From NCBI GenBank assembly GCA_023264975.1, contig JAHFUS010000004.1, forward strand, positions 1-47,552: DNA of 47,552 bases, read 5' to 3'. The number at the start of each line of letters is the position of its first letter. Within the stretch, counting starts at the first letter, position 1. Below, one piece after another: positions 15,433 through 47,552 of this stretch. The DNA comes from Actinomycetes bacterium. Lineage in GTDB: Bacteria > Actinomycetota > Acidimicrobiia > Acidimicrobiales > GCA-2861595. Under the pieces are notes generated by a model. That model did no database searches. It had not been told where the DNA came from and was given only the letters and a program-made list of their open reading frames with translations. The translations under genes were made by a program, and so were the position numbers.

Positions 15433-15454
15433 CCCCCCCCCCCCCCCCCCCCCC
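15433..15454. repeat. 22-base poly-C homopolymer
   Basis: An uninterrupted run of 22 C between the pseudogene region and the tRNA gene. Nothing similar occurs elsewhere in the window. It may be a real slippage-prone tract or a sequencing/assembly artefact at a contig junction. Confidence 0.95.
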
Positions 15455-18563: not shown

Positions 18564-19571
18564 GTGGCGACTAGAACGTGCAGGGTGCTGGGCGCCATCT
18601 CCTACGACCCGCTGGTCCACATCGAGCTGGGCCCGCTGTCGATCTCGCCCCACGGCATCGGCATCGCTGCCGGCTTCCTCATCGGAGCCCGCCTGCTGCT
18701 CCCGCGTACCCGCCGGCTGGGCATCCACGACGACGACGTCTACTCCATGCTCAGCCGGGCGGCGATCGGGGCGATCCTCGGCGCCCGGATCGCCTACGTG
18801 GTCAACCACGCCTCGGACTTCGACTCCTTCATCGACGTGTTCAAGGTGTGGGAGGGCGGCATCTCGCTGCTGGGCGGCTTCTTCGGCGCCATCGGCTTCA
18901 CGGTGCCGGCCATGCGCCGGCGCCGGCTGTCGTTCTGGAAGCTCATGGACGGCTGCGCCCCCGGCATGGCCCTCGGCGTGGTGGTCGGCCGGATCGGCGA
19001 TCTGGTGGTGGGGGACCACCTGGGCAAGACCACCGACTTCTTCCTCGGTTACCTGTGCCCGCCCAACAGCGTCGAAACGGCCTCGCCGTGCACCCCCGGA
19101 ACCGTCGTCCACCAGACGGCGTTCTACGACCTCATCCTCACCATCCCGCTGCTCCTCGCCCTCTTGTGGCTGCGACGCAGAACTCGGTTCGACGGCTTCC
19201 TCATCATGGTGTTCGGTGCCTGGTACGGCTGCCAGCGGATCCTCGAGGACTTCCTGCGTGAGGACATCCGCCGCTTCGGCCTCACCGGCAGCCAGATGAC
19301 GGCGCTGGCCACCGTCACGGTCACGCTGTCGTGGCTGGCCTTCGCCCGCCACACGCCGAGATGGGGTCGCTGGGACGAGCTCCCACCGGGCCGCGCCGGT
19401 CCCGACGCGGGGCACGACCTCGATGAGGACAACGAGTCGGACGACGCCCTCGGGGCGCTCGACGACGCAGAGCTGGCCCGCCAACCGGCCGGCGACGCGG
19501 CCGCCGCCGACGATGCCGGGGACGTCCGTCCGGACGCACCCCGACCCGAACCACACGAACGAGAGGACTAG
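18564..19571 (+). CDS. lgt: Prolipoprotein diacylglyceryl transferase (Lgt)
   Basis: Lgt transfers the diacylglyceryl group from phosphatidylglycerol to the lipobox cysteine of prolipoproteins in the inner membrane. The protein has multiple membrane segments and key motifs: SPHGIGIAAGF near residue 30, WEGGISLLGGFFGA and VVGRIGDLVVGDHLGK (the equivalent of the signature GRIGNFxNGE, with Asp replacing Asn as in some actinobacterial proteins). A C-terminal acidic, disordered tail of about 70 residues follows the last membrane helix. Starts at 18564, or a GTG around 18585 giving MLGAISYDP, are both possible. Two lipoproteins in the window (12203, 30540) would be substrates. Confidence 0.88.
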   Translation: MATRTCRVLGAISYDPLVHIELGPLSISPHGIGIAAGFLIGARLLLPRTRRLGIHDDDVYSMLSRAAIGAILGARIAYVVNHASDFDSFIDVFKVWEGGISLLGGFFGAIGFTVPAMRRRRLSFWKLMDGCAPGMALGVVVGRIGDLVVGDHLGKTTDFFLGYLCPPNSVETASPCTPGTVVHQTAFYDLILTIPLLLALLWLRRRTRFDGFLIMVFGAWYGCQRILEDFLREDIRRFGLTGSQMTALATVTVTLSWLAFARHTPRWGRWDELPPGRAGPDAGHDLDEDNESDDALGALDDAELARQPAGDAAAADDAGDVRPDAPRPEPHERED

Positions 19572-19574
19572 CCA

Positions 19575-19805
19575 ATGGACGTGCGTATCGGCATCACCCA
19601 GACGCCGAGGGAGATCGAGCTCGACGTGGCTGAAGACGGCGACGCCGTGAAGAAGGCCGTCGAGTCGGCGGTGGCGGCGGGCGACACCCTGCTGTGGCTC
19701 ACCGACCGCAAGGGCCGCCGCGTCGGCGTGCCCGCGGCCAAGATCGCCTATGTCGAGATCGGCAGTGCGAGCGACGACCGCCGGGTGGGCTTCGGCGCCC
19801 ACTAG
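19575..19805 (+). CDS. DUF3107 family protein
   Basis: The 76-aa protein MDVRIGITQTPREIELDV... matches DUF3107, a small family almost confined to Actinobacteria. It has KKAVESAVAAG, LLWLTDRKGRRVGVPAAKI and AYVEIGSASDDRRVGFG. It starts three bases after the lgt stop region and precedes the ArsA-like ATPases, so all are probably one transcript. Function is unknown. Confidence 0.88.
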   Translation: MDVRIGITQTPREIELDVAEDGDAVKKAVESAVAAGDTLLWLTDRKGRRVGVPAAKIAYVEIGSASDDRRVGFGAH

Positions 19806-19819
19806 CGCTAGCCGCACCC

Positions 19820-20767
19820 GTGGGCGACCTCCTCGACCGCAAGCTGCTCCTCGTCACCGGCAAGGGCGGGGTGGGGAAGACGACCGTCGCCGCGTCGTTC
19901 GCCCTCCTCGCATCCCAGCGGGGCATGCGAACCCTCGCCTGCGAGGTGGACGCCAAAGGTGCCCTCGCATCGGTGTTCGAGACCGGCCCCACCTCCTTCG
20001 CGGAGCGCGAGGTCCAGCCGCGCCTGTGGGCAATGACCATGGACACCGAGGCGTCGCTCAAGGAGTACCTGGCCCTCCAGCTGCACCTGCCGGCCGCTGC
20101 CCGCATCGGGCCCCTGGCCCGCATGTTCGACTTCGTGGCCACTGCGGCGCCCGGCGTGCGCGAGGTACTCACCATCGGCAAGCTGGCCTACGAGGTGCGC
20201 CAGGGCCACTACGACCTGGTGGTGGTCGACGGCGCCGCGACCGGCCACGTGGTGGGGCAGTTGGCCGCCCCCCAGGCCATCAACGAGCTGGTGCAGGTGG
20301 GCATCATCCGCGAGCAGACGCGGTGGATGCTCGACATCCTCTCCGACCCGGAGAAGACCGGCATGGTGATCGTGGCCACGCCCGACGAGATGCCGGTGAA
20401 CGAGACCATCGAGCTGGCGGCGCGGCTCCGCTCGGACACCGTCGTCGACCTGGCCGCGGTGGTGGTGAACCGCGTCCTGCCCGAGCTGTTCGGGCGGGGC
20501 GAGGAGGCCATCTTCGAGCGGCTGGCCCGCCCCGACGCGCTGCCGGCACTGCGCAAGGCGGCGGGCGACGACGTCGGCCCCATCGTCGACGCCGCCCGCC
20601 TGGCCGTCACCCTGCGGCGCACCCGGGCAGACCACATCGAGCGCCTGCGCGCGGAGGTCGACCCAGCCGTTCCGATGCTCTACGTGCCGTACCTGTTCTT
20701 GCGTTCGCACGGGCTGAGGGCGACGCACCAGGTGTCCGAGGCGCTGGCCGCCGAGCTGGGCTACTGA
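19820..20767 (+). CDS. ArsA/GET3-like ATPase, first copy
   Basis: A 315-aa SIMIBI ATPase of the anion-transporting ArsA family. The deviant Walker A is GKGGVGKTTVA near residue 13; ACEVDAKGALASV is switch I-like; DLVVVDGAATGHVVGQL is the Walker B/switch II region with the family's DGxxTGH. Actinobacteria carry this as one of a tandem pair whose two chains are thought to work together; the true substrate is not established. A GTG start at 19820 is preferred over the longer upstream frame because it begins immediately before the beta strand leading into the P-loop. The stop at 20765-20767 is the first unit of a 14-base repeat array. Confidence 0.85.
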   Translation: MGDLLDRKLLLVTGKGGVGKTTVAASFALLASQRGMRTLACEVDAKGALASVFETGPTSFAEREVQPRLWAMTMDTEASLKEYLALQLHLPAAARIGPLARMFDFVATAAPGVREVLTIGKLAYEVRQGHYDLVVVDGAATGHVVGQLAAPQAINELVQVGIIREQTRWMLDILSDPEKTGMVIVATPDEMPVNETIELAARLRSDTVVDLAAVVVNRVLPELFGRGEEAIFERLARPDALPALRKAAGDDVGPIVDAARLAVTLRRTRADHIERLRAEVDPAVPMLYVPYLFLRSHGLRATHQVSEALAAELGY

Positions 20768-20840
20768 TGGGGCGGCACTGATGGGGCGGCACTGATGGGG
20801 CGGCACTGATGGGGCGGCACTGATGGGGCGGCACTGATGG
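20765..20840 (+). repeat. Five perfect 14-bp repeats forming overlapping mini-ORFs between the ArsA genes
   Basis: The unit TGATGGGGCGGCAC occurs five times without mismatch (20765-20834), followed by the partial TGATGG in which ATG 20837 starts the second ATPase. Each unit supplies a TGA that ends the preceding frame and, overlapping it by one base (TGATG), an ATG that opens ATG-GGG-CGG-CAC-TGA (MGRH). The array is therefore a run of stop-start overlaps leading from the first gene's stop to the second gene's start. The GGGGCGG in each unit could also serve as a weak ribosome-binding sequence. Confidence 0.97.
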
Positions 20841-22000
20841 ACCGGCCCCGCGGCCAGGCCTCGATCGAGCAGCTGCTGGCGGCCAAGGAGATCGTTGTCA
20901 CCTGCGGCTCGGGCGGGGTGGGCAAGACCACCACGGCCGCCGCCCTGGCGGCGATGGCGGCGGCGCGCCACGGGGGCAAGGTGCTGGTGCTCACCGTCGA
21001 CCCGGCCCGCCGGCTGGCCGACGCCCTCGGCGTGCAGGCTCTCGGCAACGACGCCCGGCGGGTGCCGGCGTCCGCCTTCACCGACGCCGGCCACCCGGCG
21101 CGAGGGGAGCTGTGGGCGGCCCAGCTCGACACCAAGCAGTCGTGGGACGACCTCGTGCGCGAGCACGCGCCCGACAGGCGCACGGCCCGCCGAATCCTGG
21201 ACAACAAGCTCTACGAGAACATCTCCGGGCGGTTCGTGCAGAGCCATGAGTACATCGCTATGGAGCGCCTCTACGACCTCCACAACGAGGGCACCTACGA
21301 CCTGATAGTGGTGGACACCCCGCCGACGCGCAACGCCCTCGACTTCCTCGAGGCGCCGGAGCGCATGGCCGAGTTCTTCTCCAGCAGGTTCCTGCGCGTG
21401 CTCACGGCGCCGGCCCGCTCGCGAGTGGTGAGCTTCGCCTCCAAGCCGTTCTTCACGGTGGCCGACCGTGTGCTCGGCTCGCAGTTCCTCCAGGACATCG
21501 CCGAGTTCTTCTCGCTGTTCCAGACCATGGCCCCCGGCTTCGTGGAGCGAGCCAATGCGGTGAGCCGCCTGCTCCGCAACAACCGCACGACGTACGTGGT
21601 CGTCAGCACCCTCGAGGCGGCGCCGCTGCACGAGGCCGGGCTGTTCGTCGAGGCGATCACGGCCAAGGGATTCCACCTGGGCGCGGTGGTGCTCAACCGG
21701 GTGCTGCCGTCGTACCTGCTCGACGAGCAGGCCGGCCTGGTGGCGGGGGCGCTGGCCGGCGACCCGAGTGCGGCGGCCGCCGCCCTGGCCAACGGCACGG
21801 GCGACGAGGCCCAGGTGGCGCGTGTCCTCACCGAGATCGCCGAGAGCTTCCTGCGCTTCCAGGTGGTGGCCCAGCGCGAGGCCGAGCAGCGCTCGGAGCT
21901 GTCGGTCGCCACCGACGTGGTGGCACCCGTCCCCTACTTCGAGACCGACATCTGCGACCTGGCCGGCCTCCTCCGCCTCGGCGAGCAGATCTGGACCTAG
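20837..22000 (+). CDS. ArsA/GET3-like ATPase, second copy
   Basis: A 387-aa paralogue of the upstream ATPase. Walker A is CGSGGVGKTTTAAAL; the second motif is LTVDPARRLADALGV, typical of true ArsA/Get3 proteins (VDPAxxL); DLIVVDTPPTRNALDFLEAP is the switch II region. A region rich in aromatic residues (EFFSSRFLRVLTAP, FASKPFFTVADRVLG, FFSLFQTMAPGF) resembles the lid region. This is the larger partner of the tandem pair. Its ATG at 20837 is part of the last unit of the 14-base array, so translation is tied to the array. Confidence 0.87.
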   Translation: MDRPRGQASIEQLLAAKEIVVTCGSGGVGKTTTAAALAAMAAARHGGKVLVLTVDPARRLADALGVQALGNDARRVPASAFTDAGHPARGELWAAQLDTKQSWDDLVREHAPDRRTARRILDNKLYENISGRFVQSHEYIAMERLYDLHNEGTYDLIVVDTPPTRNALDFLEAPERMAEFFSSRFLRVLTAPARSRVVSFASKPFFTVADRVLGSQFLQDIAEFFSLFQTMAPGFVERANAVSRLLRNNRTTYVVVSTLEAAPLHEAGLFVEAITAKGFHLGAVVLNRVLPSYLLDEQAGLVAGALAGDPSAAAAALANGTGDEAQVARVLTEIAESFLRFQVVAQREAEQRSELSVATDVVAPVPYFETDICDLAGLLRLGEQIWT

Positions 22001-31339: not shown

Positions 31340-32212
31340 TCAGTCCCCGTCGGCCCCGTTGATCTCCATGGCGAACGGTTCGTGGTTGTCGAGTGCCTCG
31401 CCCGCCTGCTCCAGCACGGCACCGGTGGCGGCGCGAGCCTCGGCCACCACTGCACTCGACTCGGCGTCCTCCAGCAGGGCGGTGGCCAGCTCCTCGGCCT
31501 CGGCGACCATGGCGTCGGCCTCCTCGCGGGCCCGCCGGCGCACGTCCTCGGCGGACGACGCCGCTGCCCGCAACAGGCCGGCGATCTCGGCGCCCACCTC
31601 GGCGAAGGGGTCACAGGCCTCCTGGCCGGCTGCCACCGCGAGCTGGGCGGACACGGCGTCGAGCTGGGTCGTCATCTCGGCCAGCTGCGCCTCCACGGTC
31701 CCCCGGGCCGCCTGCTCCAGGCTCAACAGCTCGCGGGCCTCCGCGAGAGCCGCCTCGGCGTGCTCGACCGACGCCCGCAGGAGGCGGCGCTCGGCCTCGG
31801 CGACAACCAGCTTCTCCTCCGCCTCGCCGTCTCGTGCGCTGTCCTGGCGCGCCGCCCGCAGCTCGGCCCGGGTGGTGGCCAACAGTTGCTCGGACGCCGT
31901 GCGCACTTCGCGCAATTCGCGAAGTTCGGCCCGGGTGGTGGCCAGCAGTTGCTCGGACGCCGTGCGCTCCTCGCGCAACTCGCGAAGTTCGGCTCGGGCC
32001 CCCACCAGCTCCGCTTCCGCCTCGATCAGGTGCCGCGACGTGGCATCGATCTCGCCCAGGAGGTCGTCGGTCAGTCCGGAGACGGTGTCGAGGAGCTCGT
32101 CGACCTCAGCGGTGTCATAGCCGCGCCGACGGATGCTGAAGGCCCTTCGGACGATCGCGAGGCGAAGTGCGGTGTCCGTGCTGTCGATGGTCGTCACTGT
32201 CCCAGCCCCCAA
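31340..32212 (-). CDS. DivIVA-like coiled-coil protein
   Basis: The 290-aa protein has a short N-terminal DivIVA-type domain ([20 protein letters not shown]) followed by long coiled coil to about residue 215 and an acidic C-terminus. DivIVA/Wag31-type proteins bind curved or polar membrane and organise growth or division. Residues 70-120 contain two copies of a 21-residue unit ([19 protein letters not shown]), exactly three heptads, matching a 63-base DNA repeat at 31864-31990. Upstream is an AT-rich promoter region. It is on the opposite strand to the ETF operon. Confidence 0.82.
31864..31990. repeat. 63-bp tandem duplication within the DivIVA-like gene
   Basis: Two copies offset by exactly 63 bases (CGGCCCGGGTGGTGGCC at 31864 and again at 31927), with about five differences. 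The repeat adds three heptads to the coiled coil and keeps the frame. Confidence 0.85.
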
Positions 32213-45115: not shown

Positions 45116-46867
45116 ATGACCAGGTCCAGGTGGGCGAGGAAGGCTGCATGCGCAGCGGCGCTGGTGGCGGCAGGGCTGCTCCCGGCGGTCACGGCGGGGC
45201 CGGCACGGGCCAACCACATCGTGCTCGCATCGCTCCAGGTCACGCCCGAGATCAGTTCGGTGCAGGTGGGCGACACCGTCACGCTCACGGCCCACTTCAA
45301 GACCTCGGTCGTCAGCGTCGGTTCGAAGGTCAACTTCCACTTCGAAGGAGGCCCCCTCGCCGGGACCCCGGACATGAGCTGCACCATCGCGGCGCTCGCC
45401 ACCACGTGCACGGTGCAGGTGGTGTCGAGCGTGTCGGGGTCGTCCCTGGTGCGGGCGTCGTTCGACGGCTCGACGAATGTCGACGCCACCGAGGGCCGGT
45501 TGGCCAGCTCCGCTACGTCCGGCGTCACGGCCGACTGCATCACCCCCGAGGAGGGCGAGACCGAGGCGACCGCCTGTCGGTCCGGCGACGTTCCCGCCGC
45601 AGGCACGGTGGCCGAGCCCGACGACACCGACGTGGTGCGGGTCACCTGGCGTGATCGCGGCGTCGACGTGGTGCCTGACAGCCAGGCCAAGGCCCTCAAC
45701 GAGATGGCCACACTCACGGCTACCGCCTACAACCTCAACGGCACCCCGGCAGCCAACGTGCCCGTGAAGTTCGAGTTCTTCGATGCGTCCGTGTCGGACC
45801 CGGGGGGCGGGAACACGCCGGCCACACCCGACAAGGCCTGCACCACGGGGGCGAACGGCACCTGCGCCATCACCTTCACGCAGGCGACGGACGGCATCGA
45901 CCTCCTCTGCGCGTGGACGTTGTCGACGCCGCCGGCCATGTCGGGCAAGGCCACCGACTCGGGCGGCGTCTGCAACTCCGAGGTGCTCTTCGACGTCGGC
46001 GGCAACGACGGGACGCCGGCCCCCATCGACGACGCCATCGACGTCGTCCGGGTCCTCTGGGGCAAGGCCAACCCGGTCATCACCCAGCCGACGGTCACGC
46101 CTCCGGTCCCCGTCGGCAGCGGCTATTGGCTGGTGGCCTCCGACGGCGGCATCTTCGCCCTCGGCGACGCCGTGTTCCAGGGGTCGACAGGCGCCATCAA
46201 GCTGAACCAGCCCATCGTCGGTATGACGTCCACGCCCACCCGCAAGGGCTACTTCCTTGTGGCGTCGGACGGCGGGATCTTCGCCTTCGGCGACGCCGTG
46301 TTCCGGGGCTCCACGGGCGCCGTCAAGCTCAACCAGCCCATCGTGGGCATGGCCACCACACCCAGCGGAAACGGGTATTTCCTGGTGGCCAAGGACGGCG
46401 GCATCTTCGCCTTCGGCAGCGCCGTGTTCCAGGGCTCCACGGGCGCCATCAAGCTGGCCCAACCCATCGTGGGCATGGACGTGACGCCCTCCGGCCAGGG
46501 GTACTTCCTCGTCGCCGCCGACGGCGGGGTGTTCGCCTTCGGCGACGCCGTCTTCCGGGGGTCGACGGGCGCCCTCAAGCTGGCCAGGCCCATCGTGGGC
46601 ATCACCGCGACCACCACGGGCAAGGGCTACTACCTGGTGGCGTCCGACGGCGGCATCTTCGCCTTCGGGGATGCGGTCTTCCGCGGCTCGACCGGCGCCA
46701 TCAGGCTCAACCAGCCCATCGTGGGCATGAGCCGCAGCGTCACCGGCCTCGGCTACCGCCTGGTGGCGTCCGACGGCGGCATCTTCGCCTTCGGTGACGC
46801 GCTGTTCAAGGGATCCACGAGCGCTATCAAGCTCAACAAGCCCATGGTGGGGATGGCCGGCTTCTAG
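45116..46867 (+). CDS. Secreted protein with six 42-residue [10 protein letters not shown] repeats
   Basis: The 583-aa protein starts at ATG 45116 (GGCAGGAGGG site). A signal peptide with a twin-Arg-like start (RWARKAACAAALVAAGLLPA) and cleavage near ARA precedes two Ig-like/big-domain segments (LQVTPEISSVQVGDTVTLTA, then AATYN-type invasin repeats with YNLNGTPAANVPVKFEF). From about residue 340 six repeats of 42 residues follow: GY-[WFYR][16 protein letters not shown] then [QR][15 protein letters not shown]. They resemble blades of a beta-propeller or a wall-binding repeat. It is probably surface-exposed. A close paralogue in opposite orientation starts at 47552. Confidence 0.85.
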   Translation: MTRSRWARKAACAAALVAAGLLPAVTAGPARANHIVLASLQVTPEISSVQVGDTVTLTAHFKTSVVSVGSKVNFHFEGGPLAGTPDMSCTIAALATTCTVQVVSSVSGSSLVRASFDGSTNVDATEGRLASSATSGVTADCITPEEGETEATACRSGDVPAAGTVAEPDDTDVVRVTWRDRGVDVVPDSQAKALNEMATLTATAYNLNGTPAANVPVKFEFFDASVSDPGGGNTPATPDKACTTGANGTCAITFTQATDGIDLLCAWTLSTPPAMSGKATDSGGVCNSEVLFDVGGNDGTPAPIDDAIDVVRVLWGKANPVITQPTVTPPVPVGSGYWLVASDGGIFALGDAVFQGSTGAIKLNQPIVGMTSTPTRKGYFLVASDGGIFAFGDAVFRGSTGAVKLNQPIVGMATTPSGNGYFLVAKDGGIFAFGSAVFQGSTGAIKLAQPIVGMDVTPSGQGYFLVAADGGVFAFGDAVFRGSTGALKLARPIVGITATTTGKGYYLVASDGGIFAFGDAVFRGSTGAIRLNQPIVGMSRSVTGLGYRLVASDGGIFAFGDALFKGSTSAIKLNKPMVGMAGF

Positions 46868-47117: not shown

Positions 47118-47552
47118 CTACGGGGTCGCAGCCATGCCGACGACCGGCTTGTTGAGCCTGATTGCGCCGGTCGACCCCTGGAAGGTGGCGTCGCCGAAGG
47201 CGAAGATGCCGCCGTCCGCCGCCACCAGCCAGTAGCCGGCGCCGCTGGCGGTCGCCGCCATGCCGACAACGGGCAGGTTCAGCCTGATGGCGCCGGTGGA
47301 GCCCTTGAAGACGGCGTCGCCGAAGGCGAAGATCCCGCCGTCGGAGGCCACCAGGAAGTACCCGTTCCCGCCGGGCGTCGTAGCCATGCCGACCACCGGC
47401 CTGTTCAGCCTGATGGCGCCGGTGGAGCCCCTGAAGACGGCGTCGCCGAAGGCGAAGATCCCGCCGTCGGAGGCCACCAGGAAGTACCCGTTGCCGCTGG
47501 GTGTGGTGGCCATGCCCACGATGGGCTGGTTCAGCCTGATGGCGCCGGTGGA
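47118..47552 (-). CDS. Second [10 protein letters not shown]-repeat protein, partial (3' end only)
   Basis: The C-terminal part of a paralogue of the protein at 45116, read leftward from the window edge. At least three full 42-residue units are present ([19 protein letters not shown] twice, then [19 protein letters not shown]), ending [10 protein letters not shown] at 47118. The repeats are almost identical to each other at the DNA level, more than those of the plus-strand gene. The N-terminus and secretion signal lie outside the window. Confidence 0.85.

Follow-up and report, generated by a model that had tools for sequence, protein, structure and literature searches.

Overlapping stop and start codons in a tandem chain between two ArsA/Get3-type ATPase genes of an actinobacterial genome

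Described stop–start systems and the repeat tract

The original MIRU report, by Supply et al. in 1997, is said to describe an ORF whose ends overlap the ends of the neighbouring genes. The MIRU unit measures 40–100 bp (PMC2734929), with lengths of 53 and 77 bp in the senX3–regX3 interval, where three tandem MIRUs differ between strains and promoter activity is reported (PMC4213456). According to a 2025 review, MIRUs insert at start codons in such a way that an internal ORF enters a −4 nt coupling with the gene, and this is likely to limit the effect on expression (PMC12548453). The geometry of ordinary termination–reinitiation is an overlap of stop and start codons, as TGATG or ATGA (PMC6728339, PMC10666635). 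Subunits of heteromeric complexes are over-represented among such overlapping pairs, and for coupling the final 15 nt of the upstream gene suffice; overlapping codons work well, whereas in the E. coli pairs a distance of 14 nt costs 40–80% of the coupling, and at ~20 nt coupling is nearly abolished in E. coli and Haloferax (PMC10666635). A two-codon minigene regulates txe, and coupled short upstream ORFs of this type (mg2 in axe–txe) raise translation of the next gene in a manner for which the stop–start distance is critical (PMC8708949).

Here we analyse a tandem tract in a stretch of 47,552 nucleotides (the window) that links two ArsA/Get3-type ATPase genes through a series of minimal ORFs. 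The features concerned are as follows.

18564–19571, + strand: prolipoprotein diacylglyceryl transferase (Lgt) gene, upstream (Pfam LGT, 4.3e-42)
19575–19805, + strand: DUF3107 gene, upstream (Pfam, 9.8e-26)
19820–20767, + strand: gene 1, ArsA/Get3-type ATPase, GTG start, TGA stop at 20765–20767 (Pfam ArsA_ATPase, 2.3e-31)
20763–20840, + strand: tandem tract, 14-nt unit in 5.6 perfect copies (Tandem Repeats Finder: period 14, 100% matches, score 156)
20767–20781, + strand: mini-ORF 1 (MGRH), read from the sequence
20769–20772, + strand, and again at +14, +28, +42 and +56: GGGG, 8 nt before the following ATG, a weak Shine–Dalgarno-like element
20781–20795, + strand: mini-ORF 2 (MGRH), read from the sequence
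20795–20809, + strand: mini-ORF 3 (MGRH), read from the sequence
20809–20823, + strand: mini-ORF 4 (MGRH), read from the sequence
20823–20837, + strand: mini-ORF 5 (MGRH), its TGA overlapping the gene 2 ATG, read from the sequence
20837–22000, + strand: gene 2, ArsA/Get3-type ATPase (Pfam ArsA_ATPase, 1.8e-26)

TGATG occurs six times in the tract, at 20765, 20779, 20793, 20807, 20821 and 20835. All five mini-ORFs read ATG GGG CGG CAC TGA (15 nt, four codons, product MGRH) and overlap by 1 nt, the A of each TGA being the A of the following ATG. The stop codon of gene 1 lies within the first TGATG and the ATG of gene 2 (20837–20839) within the sixth, placing the genes 69 nt apart. A perfect 5.6-copy 14-mer is not a product of chance, and the two-unit sequence has a single site in the whole 3.78-Mb genome when up to 2 mismatches are allowed. 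The initial annotation had described five perfect 14-base units with TGATG overlaps, running from the stop of one ArsA-like ATPase gene to the start of another; the sequence and Tandem Repeats Finder bear this out exactly (TGA 20765 to ATG 20837), and both flanks match Pfam ArsA_ATPase. Its further point, that the frame reset in each unit lets copy number vary with both genes unbroken, is correct but would hold for any unit length here: the tract is part of neither coding sequence, so that changes in copy number are harmless to either gene. What the 14-nt (3k−1) unit length preserves is the stop–start chain.

The best PDB match of gene 1 is Rv3679 (6bs3 chain A, 5e-25, phmmer) and that of gene 2 is chain B of the same entry (4.8e-62, phmmer), the partner of Rv3679, that is, Rv3680. 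Subunits of these two types occur together in PDB entries 6bs3, 6bs4 and 6bs5. Because the two genes match different chains of the same entries best, their products very probably assemble with each other into one complex. As adjacent ArsA/Get3-like genes that each best match their own subunit, they have both the subunit types and the gene order of the Rv3679–Rv3680 pair. We know of no array at that pair, and the comparison made here is one of subunit types and order only. The gene 2 start at 20837 is supported by sequence comparison, since there is no in-frame ATG, GTG or TTG between the last in-frame stop and this position and the orthologue from a genome of the same genus (G001) aligns from residue 1. 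The DUF3107 gene is likely to be in an operon with the ATPase genes.

Compared with MIRUs, the array shares the placement of tandem repeats between co-directional genes and an internal ORF that is stop–start-coupled to its neighbour (PMC12548453, PMC4213456), the coupling here being −1 nt (TGATG) at both ends of every unit rather than −4 nt. However, its unit is 14 bp as against tens of bp, and it is local to one genomic site, whereas MIRUs are dispersed and apparently mobile. By analogy the array would thus work like a minimal MIRU, but because unit size and dispersal both differ it is not one. An ordinary termination–reinitiation pair has a single step with the same overlap geometry (PMC6728339, PMC10666635), the ancestral state of this junction, whereas the array has six serial steps through five minimal ORFs (six TGATG here, one in relatives). 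Likewise mg2 stands alone, a minigene separated by 15 nt from the following start, and does not form a tandem chain of overlapping codons.

Origin of the array at the ATPase junction

In G001, whose protein is 93% identical, and in G003, the next closest genome and from the same family (82%), the two genes meet in a plain TGATG overlap (..TACTGATGG.., ..TACTGATGGA..) with no array. Across the order, 26 of the 60 orthologous ATPase junctions scored have a −1 nt overlap, mostly TGATG, making this the commonest type, and 11 of 60 have a −4 overlap; scoring was automatic and chose the start codon nearest the stop, a rule that may have misassigned some −4 overlaps involving GTG or TTG. Because relatives carry plain overlaps without a repeat, sequence comparison indicates that the array is a derived, lineage-specific tandem expansion at an ancestral TGATG coupled junction. 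The initial annotation had held that absence of the array from related genomes would speak against its proposal; the finding in G001 and G003 counts against a conserved function of the array but not against a lineage-specific one. Replication slippage probably expanded an ancestral TGATG overlap that coupled the two subunits of a heterodimer.

Two other relatives bridge a gap at this junction with mini-ORFs unrelated to those of the array. In G117 (same order; L043/L486) the 70 nt between the ATPase genes read as a 25-codon mini-ORF, with its ATG 2 nt past the gene 1 stop and its TGA overlapping the gene 2 ATG (ATGA). In G004 (L012, same family) the genes lie 24 nt apart, and the interval contains ATG AGG CCC TGATG, a three-codon ORF ending on the gene 2 start, and its congener G005 has a plain overlap. 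Gaps of >20 nt were verified at the orthologous junction in four genomes (the array genome, G117, G004 and G012), and are bridged in three of the four, G012 being the exception; this count leaves out the larger automatically scored gaps L045, L058, L061 and L063, which are probably mis-scored stops.

As a separate observation, the G117 junction holds a dispersed palindromic REP-like element (TTGGCTGCAGTTGGCCGCG..CGCGGCCAACTGCAGCCA) with ~10 sites in the G117 genome, and its mini-ORF, coupled at both ends, is a MIRU-like case outside mycobacteria.

The chain layout could also arise without selection. A duplicated unit that begins with TGATG yields a complete chain if its length is 3k−1 and it has no internal stop, and given such an expansion we compute a chance of ~1/3 × 0.95, or ~0.3. 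Because ~30% of unselected TGATG expansions would produce it, the layout alone is weak evidence of selection and no proof of function. Unit lengths do not add to this: junction arrays comprise three independent events with 14-nt units and one with 13 nt, too few for an enrichment, and a comparison of 3k−1 with other lengths in 396 actinobacterial genomes gave few junction arrays, the 15-nt units being mostly in-frame coding repeats.

TGATG chains at other junctions

A search for four TGATG motifs spaced 14 nt apart covered 84,980 species genomes and gives counts that are lower bounds; among the matches listed, 83 of 114 arrays are 7-nt microsatellites. A relay was called complete if it starts at the stop of one long ORF and ends at the start of another. 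Complete relays with Pfam-supported flanks are present in Microbacterium lacus (three mini-ORFs, MGDN, MGDI and MGDS, from Amidohydro_2 to acyl-CoA dehydrogenase) and in a Polyangiaceae MAG (five units, from aldehyde dehydrogenase to FAD_binding_3), and Streptomyces solincola has a relay with less certain flanks. The second survey, of the 396 actinobacterial genomes, found a complete two-unit relay, likewise with Pfam-supported flanks, from a short-chain dehydrogenase to a MerR gene in G210 and G198, two actinobacteria of one genus, as well as a chain in G235 and four 13-nt units, making two 26-nt steps, in G240, both with uncertain flanks. Three further loci (L154, L229 and L282) are relay-like and were not counted as firm, some of their flanking ORFs having no Pfam match; L280 is not a relay.

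The spacers of G198 and G210 differ at 5 of 18 sites, with the middle TGATG unchanged, and fourfold-site divergence between the two genomes is ~22–26% (68/310 over 1500 nt of their gene 1, 31/120 in its last 600 nt). Because spacer divergence is close to that at fourfold sites, the sequences indicate that this chain was in place before the two species diverged. Retention of the middle TGATG in this pair is not significant (p ~0.2). A relative, G172, lacks the array and shows an ATGA overlap instead.

The initial annotation knew of no described case of this layout, but it is not unique: it recurs in M. lacus, the Polyangiaceae MAG and G198/G210, and its principle is published for mycobacterial MIRUs. 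The array is real, derived, recurrent and suggestive of a mechanism, and the kind of system it belongs to is not unprecedented. Recurrence also bears on the chance that the tract is an assembly artefact. The genome is metagenome-type, in 139 contigs, and copies of a perfect short repeat may be counted wrongly; however, at 78 bp the tract fits inside an ordinary short read, the orthologues on either side are intact and arrays like it are present in unrelated genomes, so that an artefact is hardly credible.

GG directly follows ATG in 6 of 8 independent chains and in none of ~20 non-chain TGATG arrays from GC-rich genomes, a post hoc count for which the corresponding tool test gives 6/9 versus 1/22 (Fisher p 0.0007). 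The lone case on the non-junction side of that test is itself a chain, the one preceding the GNAT gene of L120. GG at this position places a run of G ahead of the following ATG. The L120 chain itself (L120:4357–4431, Acidimicrobiia MAG PFL8) consists of five TGATG-linked MGRT mini-ORFs before the GNAT acetyltransferase gene; no coding ORF ends at the first of these mini-ORFs, and the chain appears to be used as a leader.

Five scans of viral contigs (units of 11, 13, 14, 16 and 17 nt) gave no acceptable relay between long ORFs, the 11-nt result applying to the matches listed. Viral junction flags at 14, 16 and 17 nt were dismissed, the frames being short or at a contig end, and a wide variable-gap pattern search was dropped for its many coding matches. 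Two near-identical sequences with four TGATG at 11-nt spacing (TGATGTTGTTTTGATGTTGG[G/A]TTGATGTTTGACTGATG) account for 42 of the 80 matches listed (L329–L408) and constitute a conserved element in viral contigs.

Proposed translation across the tract

With a unit of 3k−1 nt that contains TGATG, every copy is a four-codon ORF terminating at the start codon of the next, and a ribosome finishing gene 1 could in this way reach gene 2 by repeated termination and reinitiation across the 69 nt. From the published distance dependence (PMC10666635), an insertion of 69 nt without mini-ORFs should uncouple the genes. The suggestion of the initial annotation that a ribosome could restart through the chain is thus a reasonable one, given the exact layout, the likely heterodimer partnership and the independent recurrence; the relay itself we infer. 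We favour, with moderate confidence, a recent local expansion at an ancestral coupled junction, in which the chain keeps the genes coupled and renders the insertion tolerable, rather than evolved control of the subunit ratio.

Some loss is probable at every relay step, and the minigene literature suggests that four-codon ORFs may suffer peptidyl-tRNA drop-off (PMC8708949), which counts against the relay. For a serial relay with an efficiency e of 0.9 per step, the computed gene 2/gene 1 ratio falls from 0.9 to 0.53, and with e = 0.5 it is 0.016 (six reinitiations, e^6). As efficiencies multiply along the relay, either each step must work with high efficiency or ribosomes must also load afresh.

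Fresh loading is central to a neutral account, in which slippage produced a 69-nt spacer, ribosomes start gene 2 anew at a weak G-rich site or through local unfolding, and the chain is a by-product of the 14-nt unit. The ~0.3 chance of the layout given expansion and the close relatives without an array both suit this account. GGGG stands 8 nt ahead of each ATG, and RNA structure in the tract is no stronger than in shuffled sequences (z −0.03), so that fresh initiation is not obviously blocked. The anti-Shine–Dalgarno duplex of the array (−6.2 kcal/mol, versus −4.0 at gene 1's own junction) is, however, unremarkable for the window, where random 20-mers have a median of −4.0 and a 25th percentile of −6.2: the match is weak and not above background. 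That complete relays have arisen independently elsewhere, and that this same ATPase junction carries two further relays in G117 and G004, also speaks against a neutral spacer, which we regard as possible but rather unlikely.

The tract was also scanned for promoter, terminator, Rfam, RNA-fold and G-quadruplex signals, and none was found. It is therefore very improbable that the repeats act as a DNA or RNA element (promoter, terminator, protein-binding repeats, G-quadruplex or structured RNA) with an incidental ORF chain. Such a role might be suggested by the five GGGG runs and by the promoter activity reported for the MIRU-bearing senX3–regX3 intergenic region (PMC4213456), but the tract has no sigma-70-like or terminator-like sites and no Rfam match, and its folding z of −0.03 comes with no G-quadruplex in the optimal fold.

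A stronger version of the relay, in line with the proposal of the initial annotation that repeat number could set the subunit ratio, would make the tract a selected contingency or tuning locus, its slippage-set repeat number fixing the ratio of gene 2 to gene 1 geometrically as e^(n+1). The perfect identity of the repeats implies that the tract is young and may be unstable, and intergenic repeat length correlates with downstream mRNA at M. tuberculosis fpg1 (PMC2734929). However, the fpg1 effect is at the mRNA level and opposite in direction (longer repeats, more mRNA), relatives of the array genome carry zero units, and it is not evident what likely obligate partners would gain from a shifting ratio. 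We consider such a dial distinctly improbable. Also unlikely, if less so, is the general form of the idea: that slippage at coupled junctions in GC-rich bacteria has generated 13–14-nt chains again and again, and that these serve as length-tunable relays, a geometric attenuator in which the number of units determines how much of the downstream subunit is made.

Under the favoured reading of a chain that maintains coupling, recurrence at unrelated junctions suggests a general bacterial route for tolerating insertions between coupled genes. Whether the post-termination ribosome scans or only restarts locally is still debated (PMC12548453), and a natural six-step stop–start chain offers a direct test. 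Local restart predicts that gene 2 output declines as e^(n+1) with unit number and collapses when one TGATG is destroyed, whereas scanning or fresh initiation predicts little change.

Other repeats lie elsewhere in the window. Arrays of a 126-bp repeat at 46130–46859 and 47122–47552 are apparently a + strand protein motif and its reverse complement near the window end, a run of 22 C at 15433–15454 is possibly slippage-prone, and a 63-bp repeat occurs in 2.2 copies (93% matches) at 31863–31998.
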